Origin: a virus
Virus record (IMG/VR): IMGVR_UViG_3300032282_006088
Span: 1 to 24,525 of that record
Length of the DNA stretch: 24,525 nt
Strand: one strand, 5' to 3'
The position numbers and the translations under genes are program-made. Shown in pieces: positions 7,491-23,016 of the stretch (position 1 is the first letter of the stretch; the number at the start of each line of letters is the position of its first letter). The notes under the pieces were generated by a model that worked only from the letters and a program-made list of their open reading frames with translations, searched no databases and was not told where the DNA came from.

Positions 7491-9053
7491 TTAGATTTCA
7501 GGTCCAGCCTTTTCTGCTTTTCCAACCTGCTTAACATATCTGTCTTTCGGTATCATTTTTTCTTCACCTTCTTTGTACTTAACGTATAATTTATTATCCT
7601 CTATTTTAGTTACAATAACATCTCCGTCCTTTCCTACTTGAGTCTTCATATCTGTCGCAAGAATAACAACCTTTTGTCCAGCCTTCAAGTTTTCGTATGC
7701 TACCGTTTCTCCTTTAAAGATATTACCTGCTTTATTTTTAGCAACTGATGCCGCATTATATTTAACTTTGTATACATAAATTGCATTATCTGCCATTTCA
7801 ACATTAACTTTTGCTCCTTGATAAGTAGTTTTGGTAATCGGTTGAGGTGCTTCACTCTTAGTTGTAATTGAGTAAGAAACATTCTTTCCTCCATTTGGCT
7901 CAGCCGTTGAGATTTTCCAAGAAACTGCAATACTGTTCGCTTTTAAATGTCCTCCTAAATATGCAGTTAATGCATTTCTAAAAGTAACTCCTCGGTCATA
8001 AGATAATTTCATATTTTTACCAGCATCGTCTGCTCCTGCACCAGGATCAGAAGTACCAGTTGTTCCTTTTGGATAAGATTTTTCCCAGCCTGCAGCATTT
8101 TTAATAGTTCCATAATCTGGACTTGCGGATGATATAAGTGTCATAGTATCAGCTACTCCACTATCTCCTAAGTAACTAATAATTTTATCACCCATTTCTT
8201 TTACACTAGGGTGATTTGCATCAACTTTTGTTCCTTTATCATCGATATCTGCTCTACCTGTAGTAAATGCAATTGCAACCGCTCCAGTTTGTGCCTCTTC
8301 TCCTTGAGCTAATTCAGTCGTAGTTCCTCTATCTCCTCCAGTAACTGTTGCTTTTGCTGGACTAACTAGAATAACGTAACCAGATTCTTTTCTAACTGCT
8401 CCAGGATTTGAACCAGTTAAGTCGACTATTCTATTATCATTTAATATTTTAGTTGGATCGTATTGAGTAAAGTCTCCAACCGCCCAGTTTGTAAGATTAA
8501 ATGCGTTAATATATCCGCATATTGCTGCAATCCCACTTGTCTTAACCATTTGAGTAGCTGCAATAGTTAATCCGCCAGTAGTTCCTTGAGTATCAATTAC
8601 GCCGGCTGCCTTTCCATATAGCTGCACTTGGTCACCTCGCTCTAAAGTTAATCCAAGATTTGGTACAAGTTGAGCAACTTTATCAACGTCTGCAATTGGA
8701 TCAAATGATCCTGCATTTTGACCAATTCCTGCAATTATTGCTCCAAATACTTTTTCAACATAGCTCTCTGCAGAAGCACCAGTATTTCCTATTCTAAGTG
8801 ATGGTATAGCCTCTTTCCCAATCACTTTATTCATTATTGCCATAGCTGCACTGTGCTCCTTTTTATCAAAGTCTAACCATACATCTCCACCAGTGCTAGA
8901 TGAATCAAATGCGTTTATTCCTATGACTTTATTCCCAATTTGAACTGCCTCAATATTTGGTAGATATGGAAGATCACCAGGTTGTAACGCTTCATTAAGA
9001 GCAATTGATTCATGCAAAGCTCTCCAGTTTTTGTAATTTAATAAGTATGACAT
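7491..9053 (-). CDS. Large late protein with capsid-targeting-like N-terminus and OmpA-like region, 520 aa
   Basis: The first 22 residues (MSYLLNYKNWRALHES, then IALNEA) match position by position the starts of the 126-aa protein and the nucleotidyl cyclase in this window. They include two gp21-type cleavage candidates, LHE before S (13-16) and LNE before A (19-22). Residues about 258-385 resemble an OmpA-like fold: a strand with AIAFTTGRADID, a long helix, then NMKLSYDRGVTFRNAL (347-362), which fits the N-x-x-LS-x-x-R-A pattern. The last 120 residues are beta-rich and Lys-rich (SH3-like feel). It is expressed alone from a late box. An internal head protein injected with DNA, perhaps acting at the cell wall, is inferred. 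The OmpA assignment is tentative. Confidence 0.65.
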   Translation of the reverse strand: MSYLLNYKNWRALHESIALNEALQPGDLPYLPNIEAVQIGNKVIGINAFDSSSTGGDVWLDFDKKEHSAAMAIMNKVIGKEAIPSLRIGNTGASAESYVEKVFGAIIAGIGQNAGSFDPIADVDKVAQLVPNLGLTLERGDQVQLYGKAAGVIDTQGTTGGLTIAATQMVKTSGIAAICGYINAFNLTNWAVGDFTQYDPTKILNDNRIVDLTGSNPGAVRKESGYVILVSPAKATVTGGDRGTTTELAQGEEAQTGAVAIAFTTGRADIDDKGTKVDANHPSVKEMGDKIISYLGDSGVADTMTLISSASPDYGTIKNAAGWEKSYPKGTTGTSDPGAGADDAGKNMKLSYDRGVTFRNALTAYLGGHLKANSIAVSWKISTAEPNGGKNVSYSITTKSEAPQPITKTTYQGAKVNVEMADNAIYVYKVKYNAASVAKNKAGNIFKGETVAYENLKAGQKVVILATDMKTQVGKDGDVIVTKIEDNKLYVKYKEGEEKMIPKDRYVKQVGKAEKAGPEI

Positions 9054-9898: not shown

Positions 9899-10279
9899 TT
9901 ATTTTACGATATTTTCGCTCTTACTAAATTGTTGCAAGTGTTTGTAAAATGATGACAAATAAGGGTTATTATCTAATTGTCCCCAGTTTTTAATAGGTGC
10001 AGCTTGCTCCTCATCATATGAATCTCCCCAACTCATATCAGTAGCAATATATGCCATAATAGTATTATATCCTTCAGCTTTTACTAATTTCAAACATGCA
10101 GTATAATCTGCAATATTTTTAATCATAAAGACTCCTTTTTTAACACCTTCTTCGTCTGTTCCATCCCACACGCTCATTGCCTTTGTAATTTGATTAAAGG
10201 CAGCAGCACCATTGTTTCCACCAGCCATTGCTTCTTCGTTTACTCTAGCCCAGTTTTTAAAATTAAGTACAAAACTCAT
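9899..10279 (-). CDS. Small late protein with capsid-targeting-like N-terminus, 126 aa
   Basis: The start chosen is the ATG at 10279. An upstream in-frame ATG at 10312 would place the late promoter inside the coding region. With this start the N-terminus (MSFVLNFKNWARVNEEA) aligns without gaps with the 520-aa protein (MSYLLNYKNWRALHES). Both have Asn-aromatic-Lys-Asn-Trp at residues 6-10, followed by an acidic candidate cleavage site. The rest (NQITKAMSVWDGTDEEGVKKG, KNIADYTACLKLVKAEGY) looks like a small mixed helical domain with no recognised family. A single-gene late unit with this N-terminus points to an internal head protein. Confidence 0.7.
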   Translation of the reverse strand: MSFVLNFKNWARVNEEAMAGGNNGAAAFNQITKAMSVWDGTDEEGVKKGVFMIKNIADYTACLKLVKAEGYNTIMAYIATDMSWGDSYDEEQAAPIKNWGQLDNNPYLSSFYKHLQQFSKSENIVK

Positions 10280-10288
10280 ATTGTAATA

Positions 10289-10305
10289 TTTTTTATTATT
10301 TATCT
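10289..10305 (-). promoter_or_regulatory. Putative late promoter of the 126-aa gene
   Basis: On the minus strand it reads AGATAAATAATAAAAAA, identical to the boxes at 6834 and 19284, and lies 9 bases before the ATG at 10279. Confidence 0.7.
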
Positions 10306-10339
10306 TAATCATGTTGATTTTTTTTAGTATTTTATTAAT

Positions 10340-18170: not shown

Positions 18171-18872
18171 TTAAATTTTTATTTTATATGCAGTTGTCTT
18201 AGCGACTCCTTTTAACGCCTTTAGTGGTTCACATGAGTGTAACTGTAATTCTGAAAGTAGTCGACCGCTTCGTTTACGTTTACCTTCCCAACATCGTTGC
18301 TGATAATCAATAATTTCGAGTGTACGACTCTTTTTAGAAACAAGTTCTTCAATCTTATTTTCCTCATCTTTAGGTAAAGTATCAGTAAAACTAAAAGACA
18401 CGTATCCAGGTTCAGAGACAGTTGACTCCATTCTAGATGCAGTGTTTACCGTATTTCCAAAATAGTCCCATAACTTCTTACCTTGAATATCAGTCTGCTT
18501 TTTATATAGTGGACCCCAACAGATTCCTAATCGAATCGTCATACTCGTATCCTTAATCTTAATTGGATCGTCTTTAAGGTTTTCTTGTATCTCCATACCT
18601 GCCTCTACTGCTCTAAGTAGAGAGTCCTTTCCTTCGAAACTTACCATATAACTATCACCAATTGTCTTTACTATCATTCCATTGAATTTTGAGACAATCT
18701 TTGTCATTCTTTTACCATGGTCTTCTAGTGCATCAAACATGCCAGAGTGGTGTAGCTTCCACAATTTAGAACTAGACTTAACATCCGTAAAAAGTATTGC
18801 CTGTTCTTTTTCTTCAAGCTTTTTTAGAGAGTCTATACTTTCCCAAATTGGATATGAAACTAAATATTTCAT
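18171..18872 (-). CDS. Class III nucleotidyl (adenylate) cyclase with capsid-targeting-like N-terminus
   Basis: The 233-aa protein has one class III cyclase homology domain (about 24-165). All catalytic residues are visible: metal-binding Asp30 (FTDVKSSS) and Asp73 (KTIGDSYM), adenine-selecting Lys69 and Asp136 (LWDYFGN), and transition-state Asn143 and Arg147 (TVNTASRMES). The Lys/Asp pair predicts ATP to cAMP. The start at 18872 is preferred over in-frame starts at 18890 and 18896 because MKYLVSYPIW then aligns residue by residue with the starts of the 520-aa and 126-aa late proteins. The C-terminal 45 residues are basic and end in LKALKGVAKTTAYKI, vaguely helix-hairpin-helix-like. It shares a late unit with the DUF5856 gene. 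Packaging in the head is inferred. Class III cyclases normally work as dimers. Confidence 0.85.
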   Translation of the reverse strand: MKYLVSYPIWESIDSLKKLEEKEQAILFTDVKSSSKLWKLHHSGMFDALEDHGKRMTKIVSKFNGMIVKTIGDSYMVSFEGKDSLLRAVEAGMEIQENLKDDPIKIKDTSMTIRLGICWGPLYKKQTDIQGKKLWDYFGNTVNTASRMESTVSEPGYVSFSFTDTLPKDEENKIEELVSKKSRTLEIIDYQQRCWEGKRKRSGRLLSELQLHSCEPLKALKGVAKTTAYKIKI

Positions 18873-18902: not shown

Positions 18903-19271
18903 TTATTTTAGAGTTAGTAAATATTTAAGCTTATTAATTGCAGCTAACATCTCATCTCTAAGGTTTAATAGATCACTGTCCTTGTTACCATCTAGCTTAT
19001 GATTAAAAGATAATAAGAATTCTACAATAGTGTCCAGGAATTCCTCTATATTAACTTCTCCAATATTTCCTAGGAGAATAGCATCTGTTTCTCCTTCTAG
19101 AGCAACTCTACCATATTTACCCATATAGATTTCCATAAAATCGTCAGATAACGCACCAATCGTATCATATATTCCGCCATATGCTATATGTTTAGAATAA
19201 GATTGTGTTTGCCAGTGAAATACTTTAAATTGAGATTGAATCCCTAAGAAGGTAGACATTAAACTTGTCAT
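18903..19271 (-). CDS. DUF5856-like, Dps/ferritin-like helical protein
   Basis: The product is 122 aa from the ATG at 19271. A longer frame from a TTG at 19310 would run through the late promoter and is rejected. The sequence FKVFHWQTQSYSKHIAYGG, followed by IYDTIGALSDDFMEIYMG, has the helix-loop-helix layout and His/Asp/Glu spacing of Dps-like ferritin folds. It corresponds to the phage family DUF5856. Iron binding or DNA protection is possible but not shown. It is the promoter-proximal gene of the unit that contains the cyclase, 30 bases upstream of the chosen cyclase ATG. Confidence 0.75.
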   Translation of the reverse strand: MTSLMSTFLGIQSQFKVFHWQTQSYSKHIAYGGIYDTIGALSDDFMEIYMGKYGRVALEGETDAILLGNIGEVNIEEFLDTIVEFLLSFNHKLDGNKDSDLLNLRDEMLAAINKLKYLLTLK

Positions 19272-19283
19272 AATTTCTATAAG

Positions 19284-19300
19284 TTTTTTATTATTTATCT
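19284..19300 (-). promoter_or_regulatory. Putative late promoter of the DUF5856-cyclase unit
   Basis: On the minus strand it reads AGATAAATAATAAAAAA, identical to the boxes at 6834 and 10289, and lies 12 bases before the ATG at 19271. Confidence 0.7.
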
Positions 19301-19311
19301 CTATAAACAAA

Positions 19312-19360: not shown

Positions 19361-21016
19361 TTATGCTACAAATGATGCAGAACCTGTAAGGGTTGCAATA
19401 GCCGCTGCAGAAACATCAATATTGATATATTGAGTTTCAGGATGCCATCCTGCTTCAGTAATCGCGTATCTTGATTTCATACCGATTTTTGGAGAGAGTG
19501 TACCTTCAGAGATAGTCTGAAGAGATTCAGCCATGATGTATGGCATGAATTTAACACCTGGCTCTTCGTCAGCACCTTTACGTCCGATACAAATTCTTGA
19601 GTCTCCCCAAGACATGTTAGGATCAACGTAAACTTGTACTCCATAAACTTTACCAGCTGGGTAAAGGTTACCTGCAACTCCACCCATATCAGTTGGAACT
19701 TGTGCAATTGAGTAACCAGCAACATCAGCCATTGCAGAAGCAACACGTCCGTTAGTTACTAAGAAAGTACCAGCTCCGAAACGTCCTCTGTGGTAAATCA
19801 AGTTTGCCATTTCAAGAACTTTTGTAACTAATCTTCTTTGTAATGTAGAAGTGTTATCAAATCCACCAGCAGTTAAGTCAAGTGCATTGATGTTTGCACC
19901 TTCAACTAAGTTAACTTCTGCAGAGTGAACATCAGCAAGTTGTAATACTCTGTCAACTAATCTTTTGTTGATTGATTGAGCTAAGTCATTAACTGCTACG
20001 TTTTCCAACATAGAGATAACATCATAATTCCAAACTCTGTTCAAGTCTTGGATTTGCTCAACAGTTGCAGAAATTGATACTTGATCAGTTTCAGCTTCAA
20101 CAAATTTAGTGAACATTCTTAATCCCATTTGACGGAATTTAGAGTTTTCACCAGCTTCTCTCTTCATTGATCCTGGTACAGAACCTGTAGAAGGTAAGTA
20201 AGAACCATTGAATGGAGTTGGAGTAGCACCTTCGTAATCAGCATCAGAAATTGATGTGAATCCAGAGATATGGTTTTCCAATGCAGAAACTAGTGATACT
20301 GCCGTACATGCTGCTGCACCTACAAGAGCATTACCATCAATAGTAATAGCTGCACCTACATACTCACCAGCAGCAGTAGCACCACCACCAGCTGATCCAT
20401 CATTAAGGATTCTGATGATAATTGTACCGTCTACACGTGAATAACCAACGAAATCTGCTGTGAAATCACCACCTGCGACAGCAACTGCGTCACCAGGAGT
20501 AAGAGCAGGTCCGTAGCTATCCGCTGTTAAACCTTCTAACTTAACCATATAAGGATCGAAGTTACCTGTGTTAGTTCTACCACCAGCATATAAGTAATCC
20601 AAATATGGAAGGAATCCAACTGGAGAATCCATAGGGATAACTGGAACTAGGTCAAAACCAATAGTTTTTGCTGCTACTTGAATAGCAACTGGTAAAAGTG
20701 ATGGAAATTTATCACCTGAACCATTAGCATCTGCTCCGAAAGAATTTTTAGCACCTGCAGTGAACGGAGTCATTGCTGATGTTGGAGCTGATGGATTTCC
20801 CATAAAACCACCAAGAGAACCTGGAGTTTGGAAAAATACACCGGGAGCAGTGTTTTCAAAGATTGGTGTAGTGTTATCAAAGATAGCGTGGTTGTGAGCG
20901 TACTCAGCTAACCATGGAGTCTTAGCAACATCAGCACCGTAACCTTCTAAAATCGGCTGCCATGTGTTCGTTAAACGAGAATCGCTTGAACGCTTGAAAA
21001 TTTTAGTACGTGCCAT
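19361..21016 (-). CDS. 23: Major capsid protein (gp23-like)
   Basis: The 551-aa product matches T4 gp23. LLPVAIQVAAKTIGFDLV and VIPMDSPVG correspond to the start of the HK97-fold core. MGLRMFTKFVEAETDQ, IQDLNRVW and ISMLENVAVNDLAQSINKR correspond to the spine region. PKIGMKSRYAI lies near the C-terminus. A Gly/Ala-rich beta segment (about residues 165-260) occupies the position of the gp23 insertion domain. A gp21-type cleavage candidate, I-L-E before G, lies at residues 22-25. The base composition is less AT-rich than its neighbours, as expected for a very highly expressed gene. It has no late box of its own and is probably transcribed with the protease-scaffold gene upstream. Confidence 0.95.
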   Translation of the reverse strand: MARTKIFKRSSDSRLTNTWQPILEGYGADVAKTPWLAEYAHNHAIFDNTTPIFENTAPGVFFQTPGSLGGFMGNPSAPTSAMTPFTAGAKNSFGADANGSGDKFPSLLPVAIQVAAKTIGFDLVPVIPMDSPVGFLPYLDYLYAGGRTNTGNFDPYMVKLEGLTADSYGPALTPGDAVAVAGGDFTADFVGYSRVDGTIIIRILNDGSAGGGATAAGEYVGAAITIDGNALVGAAACTAVSLVSALENHISGFTSISDADYEGATPTPFNGSYLPSTGSVPGSMKREAGENSKFRQMGLRMFTKFVEAETDQVSISATVEQIQDLNRVWNYDVISMLENVAVNDLAQSINKRLVDRVLQLADVHSAEVNLVEGANINALDLTAGGFDNTSTLQRRLVTKVLEMANLIYHRGRFGAGTFLVTNGRVASAMADVAGYSIAQVPTDMGGVAGNLYPAGKVYGVQVYVDPNMSWGDSRICIGRKGADEEPGVKFMPYIMAESLQTISEGTLSPKIGMKSRYAITEAGWHPETQYINIDVSAAAIATLTGSASFVA

Positions 21017-21042: not shown

Positions 21043-23016
21043 TTACAATCTAGAGTTTGCGCTTCTTAGCATAGTCTCTAAGTAACCTTGAGAGTAACCT
21101 CTCTGCATCTCAACAACCTGATCTACAGGTATTAGGCCTTCTGTACTTTGGCTTTCGTTGAGTTGTTGCATTTTTTTAGTATTATGTTTTTGAATTTCAA
21201 TTCTTTCATTGATACCTCTCATATCAATATCATCCCAAAATGCTTTAACTTGGTATGGAGTGTTTACATTATAAAGTTGTGCTTTAGCGTGAACTTTACT
21301 TTTTTCATTCTCATTCATTTCATTCCAAGTAGGTTTGTATTCTGCTGGCATGAATCTAATATAAGTAGGGATATTTTGCTCTTTGTGATTTACTACTGCT
21401 TCCATAATTCCAACGATATCATTTTCGTTAAACCATACTGAACCATTAAGTGCTTCAACAATTGCTTGTTTAGTATTTGATTCTAATCCAAAGAAACTTT
21501 TCTTGTTAGCTTCGCTCATAACCTTTAAGAAAGGATATTTACTTTCAAGAACTGCTTTAGAAGATTTGTCATTTACTTCAGTAATTACTTGATCAACTTT
21601 AGAAATCAGGTTATCGATAGAGTTAGACTCGTCTAATTTAGAAACTCCTCCTAGAACGTTTCTTTTACCTAAGATAGCTCCTTCTCCTAAAGATTCAGCA
21701 AGATATTCAGCATAACCAATTGTTTTACCAACAGTTTCAGCTAAATACTGAGAATAATCACGATTTAAGTTAATGTTTTCTGAAAGATATTCTCCGAATT
21801 CAATTGAACGATTAGTTCCTTCAGCAACGTATTCAACGTATTGTAATCCTTTATCAAGCTCTTCAGCCAAATAATTTTGGTATTTAATAGAGTTGTTTAC
21901 GTTTTCTTTGATATATTCAGCGTAATTAATTGACTCATTTACTTTTTCAGAAATATAGTCTTGATAATTAACTGACTGATTTAATTTTTCTCCTAAGTAA
22001 GAAGAATATTCAATTGAATTGTTAACTGTCTCAGATACATGTTCAGTATACCTAACTGACTCATTCAATTTATGAGAAAGATAATCAGTAAAATTAATAA
22101 CTCCTTCTAATGATTCTGCTAAATAATTAACGAATCCAACTAGCTCAGAGCTACTAGATCCAGTTGATTGAGCAGACTCTAGAATAGACTTGTGATTCTT
22201 AAGTTCTTTTTTAATCCCATTGAATTGTGTTTTAAGAACTTCTGAGTATTTATCCATTTGTTCTTTTGTTACAAACTCGGCCATCGTGTTATTATTTTTT
22301 TGTTCTTGTAGAGTCCCTTGGAATTGTATTCCTGAACTATTTTCTAATTTATTTATCTTATAAACTTTAAAATTATCTGCGAAGTTTAAACTTTCTGAAA
22401 TATCCATTAATCCAGATTTTTGAATAAACGAATTTTCCTTCATTGAATTATAACTTTCAGTAATCATTGAAAAGTCACTCTTTAAAGACTCACTAACCGT
22501 CTTTCGTAAAACCGCTTCCGTAAATCCAGGTTCACCTACTAAATCATAAGTAAAGATTCTCTGTAATTTTACGTTACCGCTCTCACTAACTTGACCAGCT
22601 GCTCTTGAAGAAACTGATAATTGAACTCCTCCATCAAGTAATGCTTTCGCTAATTTACCGTGAGGAGTATTTTCTAATAATCTAACTTTAATGTATACTT
22701 TATCACCACCGTCATAGTTAAGAGCTTCAATAATATGTGAAGCTTCACTTAATTTTGGTTCAAAATGTTGAGGGTGATCAACCGTTCCAACTAATTGTCT
22801 TTTTGAGATCTTATCTTGAAGATAAGTAAGGTGTGGAAGGTATTCTGATTTTTCATAGACTCTTCGGTTATTATTCATTTGACCGAATACTGCGCATACT
22901 CCTTCAAGTACTGCACCAGATGCAGATGATTCACTTACTTGAAGTTTTTCACCAACATTTTCAACGACTAGTACCCAGTCGCCGTAGTTAATTTGTGCTG
23001 AATTTAGATTTGACAA
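21043..23016 (-). CDS. 21: Prohead protease-scaffold fusion (gp21/gp22-like)
   Basis: The 657-aa protein joins a T4-type prohead protease (about residues 30-190; GTVDHP with His81 and VSSRAAG with Ser136/Ser137) to a long scaffold part (about 245-657). In T4 these are separate genes 21 and 22. The scaffold holds eleven 14-residue repeats and a helical C-terminus with a Q-L-N-E-S cleavage-like site. The start is TTG at 23016, 11 bases after the late box, the same spacing as the ATGs of sister genes. The first in-frame ATG downstream (residue 47) would remove the start of the protease domain. The N-terminus contains QINYGDW, similar to the targeting motif of other late proteins. An internal ATG at residue 245 may produce free scaffold. 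Confidence 0.88.
   Translation of the reverse strand: MSNLNSAQINYGDWVLVVENVGEKLQVSESSASGAVLEGVCAVFGQMNNNRRVYEKSEYLPHLTYLQDKISKRQLVGTVDHPQHFEPKLSEASHIIEALNYDGGDKVYIKVRLLENTPHGKLAKALLDGGVQLSVSSRAAGQVSESGNVKLQRIFTYDLVGEPGFTEAVLRKTVSESLKSDFSMITESYNSMKENSFIQKSGLMDISESLNFADNFKVYKINKLENSSGIQFQGTLQEQKNNNTMAEFVTKEQMDKYSEVLKTQFNGIKKELKNHKSILESAQSTGSSSSELVGFVNYLAESLEGVINFTDYLSHKLNESVRYTEHVSETVNNSIEYSSYLGEKLNQSVNYQDYISEKVNESINYAEYIKENVNNSIKYQNYLAEELDKGLQYVEYVAEGTNRSIEFGEYLSENINLNRDYSQYLAETVGKTIGYAEYLAESLGEGAILGKRNVLGGVSKLDESNSIDNLISKVDQVITEVNDKSSKAVLESKYPFLKVMSEANKKSFFGLESNTKQAIVEALNGSVWFNENDIVGIMEAVVNHKEQNIPTYIRFMPAEYKPTWNEMNENEKSKVHAKAQLYNVNTPYQVKAFWDDIDMRGINERIEIQKHNTKKMQQLNESQSTEGLIPVDQVVEMQRGYSQGYLETMLRSANSRL
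21679..22140 (-). repeat. Eleven tandem 14-residue (42-bp) repeats in the scaffold
   Basis: Residues 293-446 of the protease-scaffold protein break exactly into eleven 14-residue units of the type (I/V)-x-Y-x-x-Y-(L/I)-x-E-x-(L/V)-N-x-S, for example VNYQDYISEKVNES and INYAEYIKENVNNS. Fourteen residues equal two heptads, so a long helical or coiled-coil rod is likely. DNA identity between units is moderate, so the array is old or under protein-level selection. Confidence 0.9.
22344..22360 (-). promoter_or_regulatory. Possible internal late promoter before the scaffold part
   Basis: On the minus strand it reads TAAGATAAATAAATTAG, sharing GATAAATAA with the other late boxes. It lies inside the protease-scaffold gene, 60 bases before the internal ATG at 22284 (MAEFVTKEQMDKY). 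It may be chance in AT-rich coding DNA. Confidence 0.35.

Follow-up and report, generated by a model that had tools for sequence, protein, structure and literature searches.

A cyclase gene among the late genes of a phage raises the question of where, and in which cell, its product would act. The gene lies on a 24.5-kb virus record (24,525 nucleotides; hereafter the window), a fragment of a T4-like phage that encodes a gp23 capsid protein, a gp21 protease fused to a scaffold, DnaJ and DUF5856, with thymidylate synthase, dCMP deaminase, helicase and topoisomerase subunits encoded on the opposite strand (Table 1). A preliminary description of this locus had proposed a catalytically complete class III nucleotidyl cyclase that may be packaged in the phage head. 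The analysis presented here indicates that a family of large T4-like phages probably injects a cAMP-making enzyme together with its DNA, because the enzyme carries an N-terminal tag of the kind that sends T4 proteins into the head. The closest deposited capsid proteins share at most 36% identity with that of the window and come from uncultured huge phages and Prevotella Lak phages, which makes a Bacteroidota host likely, but this is not shown. An open-ended minus-strand ORF at positions 1-1854 of the window encodes at least 618 aa, including long collagen-like Gly-x-x (SSG/TSG) repeats, and its product is probably a fibre protein.

Table 1. Positions of the cyclase gene, its sequence elements and related features in the window.
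Feature	Position	Strand	Evidence or detail
Class III (adenylate-type) cyclase, 233 aa, ending at its own stop codon	18171..18872	-	PF00211 3.4e-21
Predicted capsid-targeting sequence, residues 1-11 (MKYLVSYPIWE), predicted cut before S12	18840..18872	-	aromatic-x-x-aromatic then I-x-E
Catalytic residues (span)	18432..18785	-	D30 18783-18785; K69 18666-18668; D73 18654-18656; D136 18465-18467; N143 18444-18446; R147 18432-18434
RSGRLLSELQ, residues 201-210, within beta7/beta8 insertion	18243..18272	-	cyclase-specific motif
DUF5856 gene, directly upstream of cyclase, first in the cyclase-holding unit	18903..19310, ATG 19271	-	PF19174 1.4e-16
GATAAATAA, T4-late-promoter-like element upstream of the DUF5856-cyclase unit	19291..19299	-	
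gp23-type major capsid protein	19361..21016	-	PF07068 2.8e-34
gp21-type prohead protease fused to scaffold	21043..23016	-	PF03420 4.4e-9, phrog_207 1.6e-34
Late protein with tag MSYLLNYKNWRALHE	7491..9053	-	N-terminus MSYLLNYKNW; upstream late-promoter-like ATAAATAA
Late protein with tag MSFVLNFKNWARVNEE	9899..10279	-	N-terminus MSFVLNFKNW, from internal Met of ORF 9899-10312

The window cyclase scores 76 bits against PF00211, above the cut-off of 21.9, and inspection of its active site reveals the two metal-binding aspartates (D30, D73), the transition-state asparagine and arginine (N143, R147) and the Lys/Asp pair for adenine (K69/D136). Five of these residues are invariant in all 20 family members and N143 is kept in 19, the sole exception being L055, where it is replaced by Gly. 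These results bear out the claim of catalytic completeness, and orthologues at 82-97% identity in six contigs show the ORF to be genuine. As judged from dN/dS values of ~0.03-0.07 for the window-clade orthologues, where computable, the cyclase is under strong purifying selection. An AF2 model of the protein (pLDDT 77, core confident) matches solved cyclase domains, the best PDB match being 5oyh (E 1.6e-12), a rhodopsin guanylyl cyclase (RhGC) engineered to use ATP. K69 and D136 correspond to the E-to-K and C-to-D positions that convert RhGC into an adenylate cyclase, and the enzyme therefore reads as ATP-specific. That is to say, these residues point to ATP as the substrate, while catalysis itself is inferred and enzymatic activity remains unproven; some stand-alone class III domains have no activity.

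The pattern of conservation also bears on whether the protein might be packaged with catalysis only secondary, as an internal protein of cyclase origin that condenses DNA or has a structural task. The Gly of L055 would suit such a role, and many T4 internal proteins are without enzymatic activity (PMC9026906). Conservation within the protein, however, is highest at the catalytic residues, with K69, D73, D136, R147 and D30 each present in 20/20 members, and we find a merely secondary role for catalysis improbable.

The family was sampled from viral-contig scans and one deposited phage genome, giving 20 distinct members that also include a cyclase from LR745206.1, a 635-kb uncultured phage, and the window clade. 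Alignments favouring N-terminal patterns recovered only six known contigs, whereas an alignment restricted to the catalytic core found 21 further phage loci in viral contigs, and a later search added five more. Genes of the gp23 and gp21 families are present in many of the cyclase-bearing contigs. In a phylogenetic tree, the 20 phage cyclases fall on one side of a branch with support of 92/88, opposite seven outgroup cyclases; by this tree, in which the outgroup set is small and has long branches, they form a clade of phage sequences relative to the few outgroups included. Three loci were kept as outgroups only: MT838110 (L009), which resembles a bacterial chromosome fragment, and L076 and L077, which have large sensor-type proteins. 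A genome scan, which finds close relatives only, returned just two distant archaeal proteins.

The cyclase gene moves between genome positions within the family. It follows DUF5856 in the window and an extra MSFINWG-type gene in G001, sits among other late genes in G002 and G003, and lies directly before a CapV-like patatin in G004-G006. The extra gene of G001, located between DUF5856 and the cyclase, is not found in the window; proteins of its family, present in L002, L003, L004, L006 and L007, combine a conserved N-terminal module of ~45 aa (MSFINWGxExPEQ) with unrelated C-terminal bodies.

The patatin neighbour invites the interpretation that the cyclase supplies the signal in a phage-borne Pycsar/CBASS-like exclusion system, in which a cyclic nucleotide would trigger a membrane-damaging effector against competing phages. 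PADLOC PycC models match the cyclase at up to 4e-11, and the patatin starts 1 bp downstream of the cyclase (L005:7217-8173, also G005 and G006), matching the PADLOC phospholipase effector at 9.6e-68 and NCBIfam CBASS_lipase with 180 bits, below the cut-off of 200. The earlier statement that no effector is encoded beside the cyclase thus holds for the window, in which no cNMP-gated effector (PycTM, PycTIR) adjoins the gene, but not for this sister phage. The arrangement is nevertheless confined to one sister lineage; neither the window nor G001-G003 has it, nor do most other records, and the start of the adjacent patatin bears no tag. CapV enzymes, moreover, respond to cGAMP and are not known to respond to cAMP. 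General class III homology accounts for the PycC match: the fold is common to both, whereas the window cyclase lacks a neighbouring effector, has adenylate-type residues, which point to ATP where Pycsar makes cCMP or cUMP, and is carried by the phage with a capsid tag. Similarly, the gene next to the cyclase in G006 matches the CBASS CapV family of patatin phospholipases, but its partner is a class III cyclase and not a CD-NTase. Taken on both sides, an exclusion system appears improbable. Other patatins, in G014 and LR745206.1, lie away from the cyclase; those of Mar_Mega_1 and LR745206 have already been reported (PMC9723777). A search for PF00027 (cNMP-binding) in 28 records found none, although failure to find a receptor or effector carries little weight because the records are fragments. 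With no cNMP-binding protein found in the phages, any cAMP made would act on the host.

The case for head packaging begins with the first residues of the cyclase. In T4, internal protein III bears a ten-residue capsid-targeting sequence, of which residues 4 and 7 direct targeting and residues 8 and 10 processing, and gp21 cleaves after L/I-x-E (PMC9026906). The window cyclase presents an aromatic pair spaced by three (Y7/W10) and a gp21-like site, I-W-E/S, where the slash marks the predicted cut. Start M1 is backed by orthologues with in-frame stops shortly upstream; in the window, another in-frame ATG lies six codons before M1, and a start there would bury the tag by six residues. As first described, the ten-residue N-terminal pattern (MKYLVSYPIW in the cyclase) is common to three proteins of the window (Table 1). 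Across the family, the tag pattern is met by 19 of 20 members in strict form and by 20/20 in relaxed form, compared with 2.4% at internal Met, and a cut site of the form [L/I/V/F]-x-E is found in every cyclase (L/I in 17/20, V or F in three). Examples include MKYLVSYPIWE/S (window), MKHINNFRLFE/A (L062), MKRFTTYINE/S (L055) and MKTFIEFINE/S (L125). The regular expression was set after inspection of the data, and family members are not independent; the binomial P for the strict tag (4e-30) is overstated because the members are related. Four distinct N-termini found after the motif was defined all fit (MKTFIEFINES in L125, MKSFKEFINES in L129/L130, and those of L138 and L140). The linkers differ widely among the cyclases despite the common tag, and the 12 tag codons of the window and L003 are separated by seven synonymous and no nonsynonymous changes.

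The tag is not limited to cyclases. In five longer contigs (66-172 kb; loci L017-L028, L080-L086 and L091-L103), it is present on 13-16% (~14%) of genes, compared with 2-3% in shuffles, an enrichment of ~5-fold. Tagged genes number 22/170 in G006 (3.8 expected), 23/146 in G003 (4.1), 23/154 in G027 (4.6), 33/236 in G011 (6.8) and 15/105 in G014 (2.9); enrichment in short contigs, the window included, is not individually significant. Domains recognised among the tagged proteins include those of cyclases, an RNA ligase, a CCA-adding-type nucleotidyltransferase, a 2H phosphoesterase-exonuclease, a muramidase and a ferritin-like protein, and the RNA ligase, the CCA-adding-type enzyme and the phosphoesterase-exonuclease are possibly counter-defence cargo. 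Acb1 was considered as tagged cargo and set aside; its match to the 568-aa protein at L092:14641-16344 is weak (24.9 bits against 27), and a 2H phosphoesterase joined to an exonuclease is the better description of that protein. Within the protease fusion, residues 294-447 (21676-22137) of the scaffold portion form an array of exact repeats, each of 14 residues with the pattern Y-x-x-Y-[LIV]-x-E, which resemble the tag. Because of this repeat array, we infer that the tags may mimic scaffold repeats.

Timing of expression was addressed through upstream elements. The element GATAAATAA resembles the T4 late promoter, TATAAATA, and lies 14-35 bases ahead of many starts, above all those of tagged genes (G001, G003, G006). 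Within window-type phages, it is found upstream of 24/49 tagged genes versus 52/335 others (Fisher P=6e-7). In L007, L125, L129 and L140 it stands immediately ahead of the cyclase, and cyclases in three lineages are among the tagged genes that follow it; in the window it sits one gene upstream rather than immediately before. A second element, TTTATATATA, occurs upstream of many cyclases and was not used as evidence of late expression because genes at large in those contigs commonly have it upstream. The proposed late unit gains support, with the cyclase placed after DUF5856 and the gp23 gene on the minus strand, but late expression itself is inferred from the promoter-like motif and gene position alone. 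Head packaging gains strong support from the tags of all 20 cyclases, the enrichment in five phages and the link to late-promoter-like elements, which are matters of sequence and not of experiment.

Late expression would also place the cyclase in the cytoplasm ahead of packaging. An active enzyme could then work in the producing cell, raising cAMP while particles are assembled or the cell lyses, and its N-terminal motif would serve localisation of another kind; no virion data exist, and the motif is carried by many proteins of unknown role. This motif nonetheless obeys the rules of T4 capsid targeting, the gp21-like cut site among them, and is similar to the repeats in the scaffold of the same genome, whereas a cytoplasmic enzyme has no reason to keep an L/I-x-E site when the residues that follow it drift. 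We consider action in the producing cell unlikely.

The reading that we favour, with reasonable though incomplete confidence, is that of a late-made, head-packaged and ejected adenylate cyclase. An intact catalytic site, purifying selection, a family-wide tag and cut site, a gp21-type protease/scaffold and late-promoter-like elements can be read from the sequences; packaging, cleavage, ejection and catalysis are inferred in the absence of proteomics or biochemistry. A stand-alone adenylate cyclase would be produced late, and its first ~11 residues, as a T4-type capsid-targeting sequence, would steer it into the prohead core, where the phage gp21-type protease is predicted to trim it after I-W-E. 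Stored beside the DNA, the trimmed enzyme would be ejected when the particle meets its next host, in which a homodimer could convert ATP to cAMP at the very start of infection. This cAMP would then act on host receptors. Reprogramming of the host seems likelier than a decoy role; the earlier suggestion of a decoy for cyclic-nucleotide defence has no direct support.

Comparison with cellular class III cyclases (trypanosome GRESAG 4.1, 1fx2; P. aeruginosa CyaB, 3r5g; engineered RhGC, 5oyh) reveals the same fold, catalytic residues and adenylate-type K/D pair. In contrast to these, the phage enzyme has no sensor or membrane domain and bears an N-terminal tag instead; the nearest plasmid-borne cyclases are only ~30% identical, and the window clade has an insertion of ~30 aa. 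It is this insertion that carries RSGRLLSELQ. The corresponding motif, RSxRLLTxxQ or RS[GDEN]R[LVM]L[STN]xxQ, is present in every family cyclase and in no other protein of 12 translated contigs (12 hits, 258,568 aa), and it is located in the N-terminal linker (~residue 20-32) of one clade but close to residue 200 in the clade of the window. Its identification as a cyclase transducer element is unsupported, the published motif there being FGRY. On an extended model, phages would inject a ready-made cyclase among a large tagged arsenal, seizing or jamming host cyclic-nucleotide signalling before phage expression, with the relocatable RSxRLLTxxQ regulating the cyclase or binding a host partner; our judgement on this model is evenly divided.

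The closest parallels to the predicted delivery are the T4 internal proteins IPI, IPII and IPIII and the ejected ADP-ribosyltransferase Alt, which are alike in their N-terminal aromatic-pair peptide, in an L/I-x-E site cut by gp21, in late expression and in acting as accessory cargo delivered with the DNA (PMC9026906, PMC3012670), features that are predicted for the window phage. The window phage differs in that its cargo would be a second-messenger cyclase, in that packaging is predicted, and in having far more tagged genes per genome. No report of a phage-encoded adenylate or nucleotidyl cyclase was found in the open-licence literature, including work on how jumbo or huge phages target proteins to the capsid. 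The phage proteins known to be delivered by virions inhibit restriction or modify the host polymerase. If the favoured reading is true, a phage that delivers a second-messenger synthase could alter host signalling within seconds of DNA entry, and a simple sequence rule would predict dozens of injected proteins, from genes otherwise unannotated, in huge Bacteroidota-type phages. Phage takeover in these uncultured viruses would thereby become testable.
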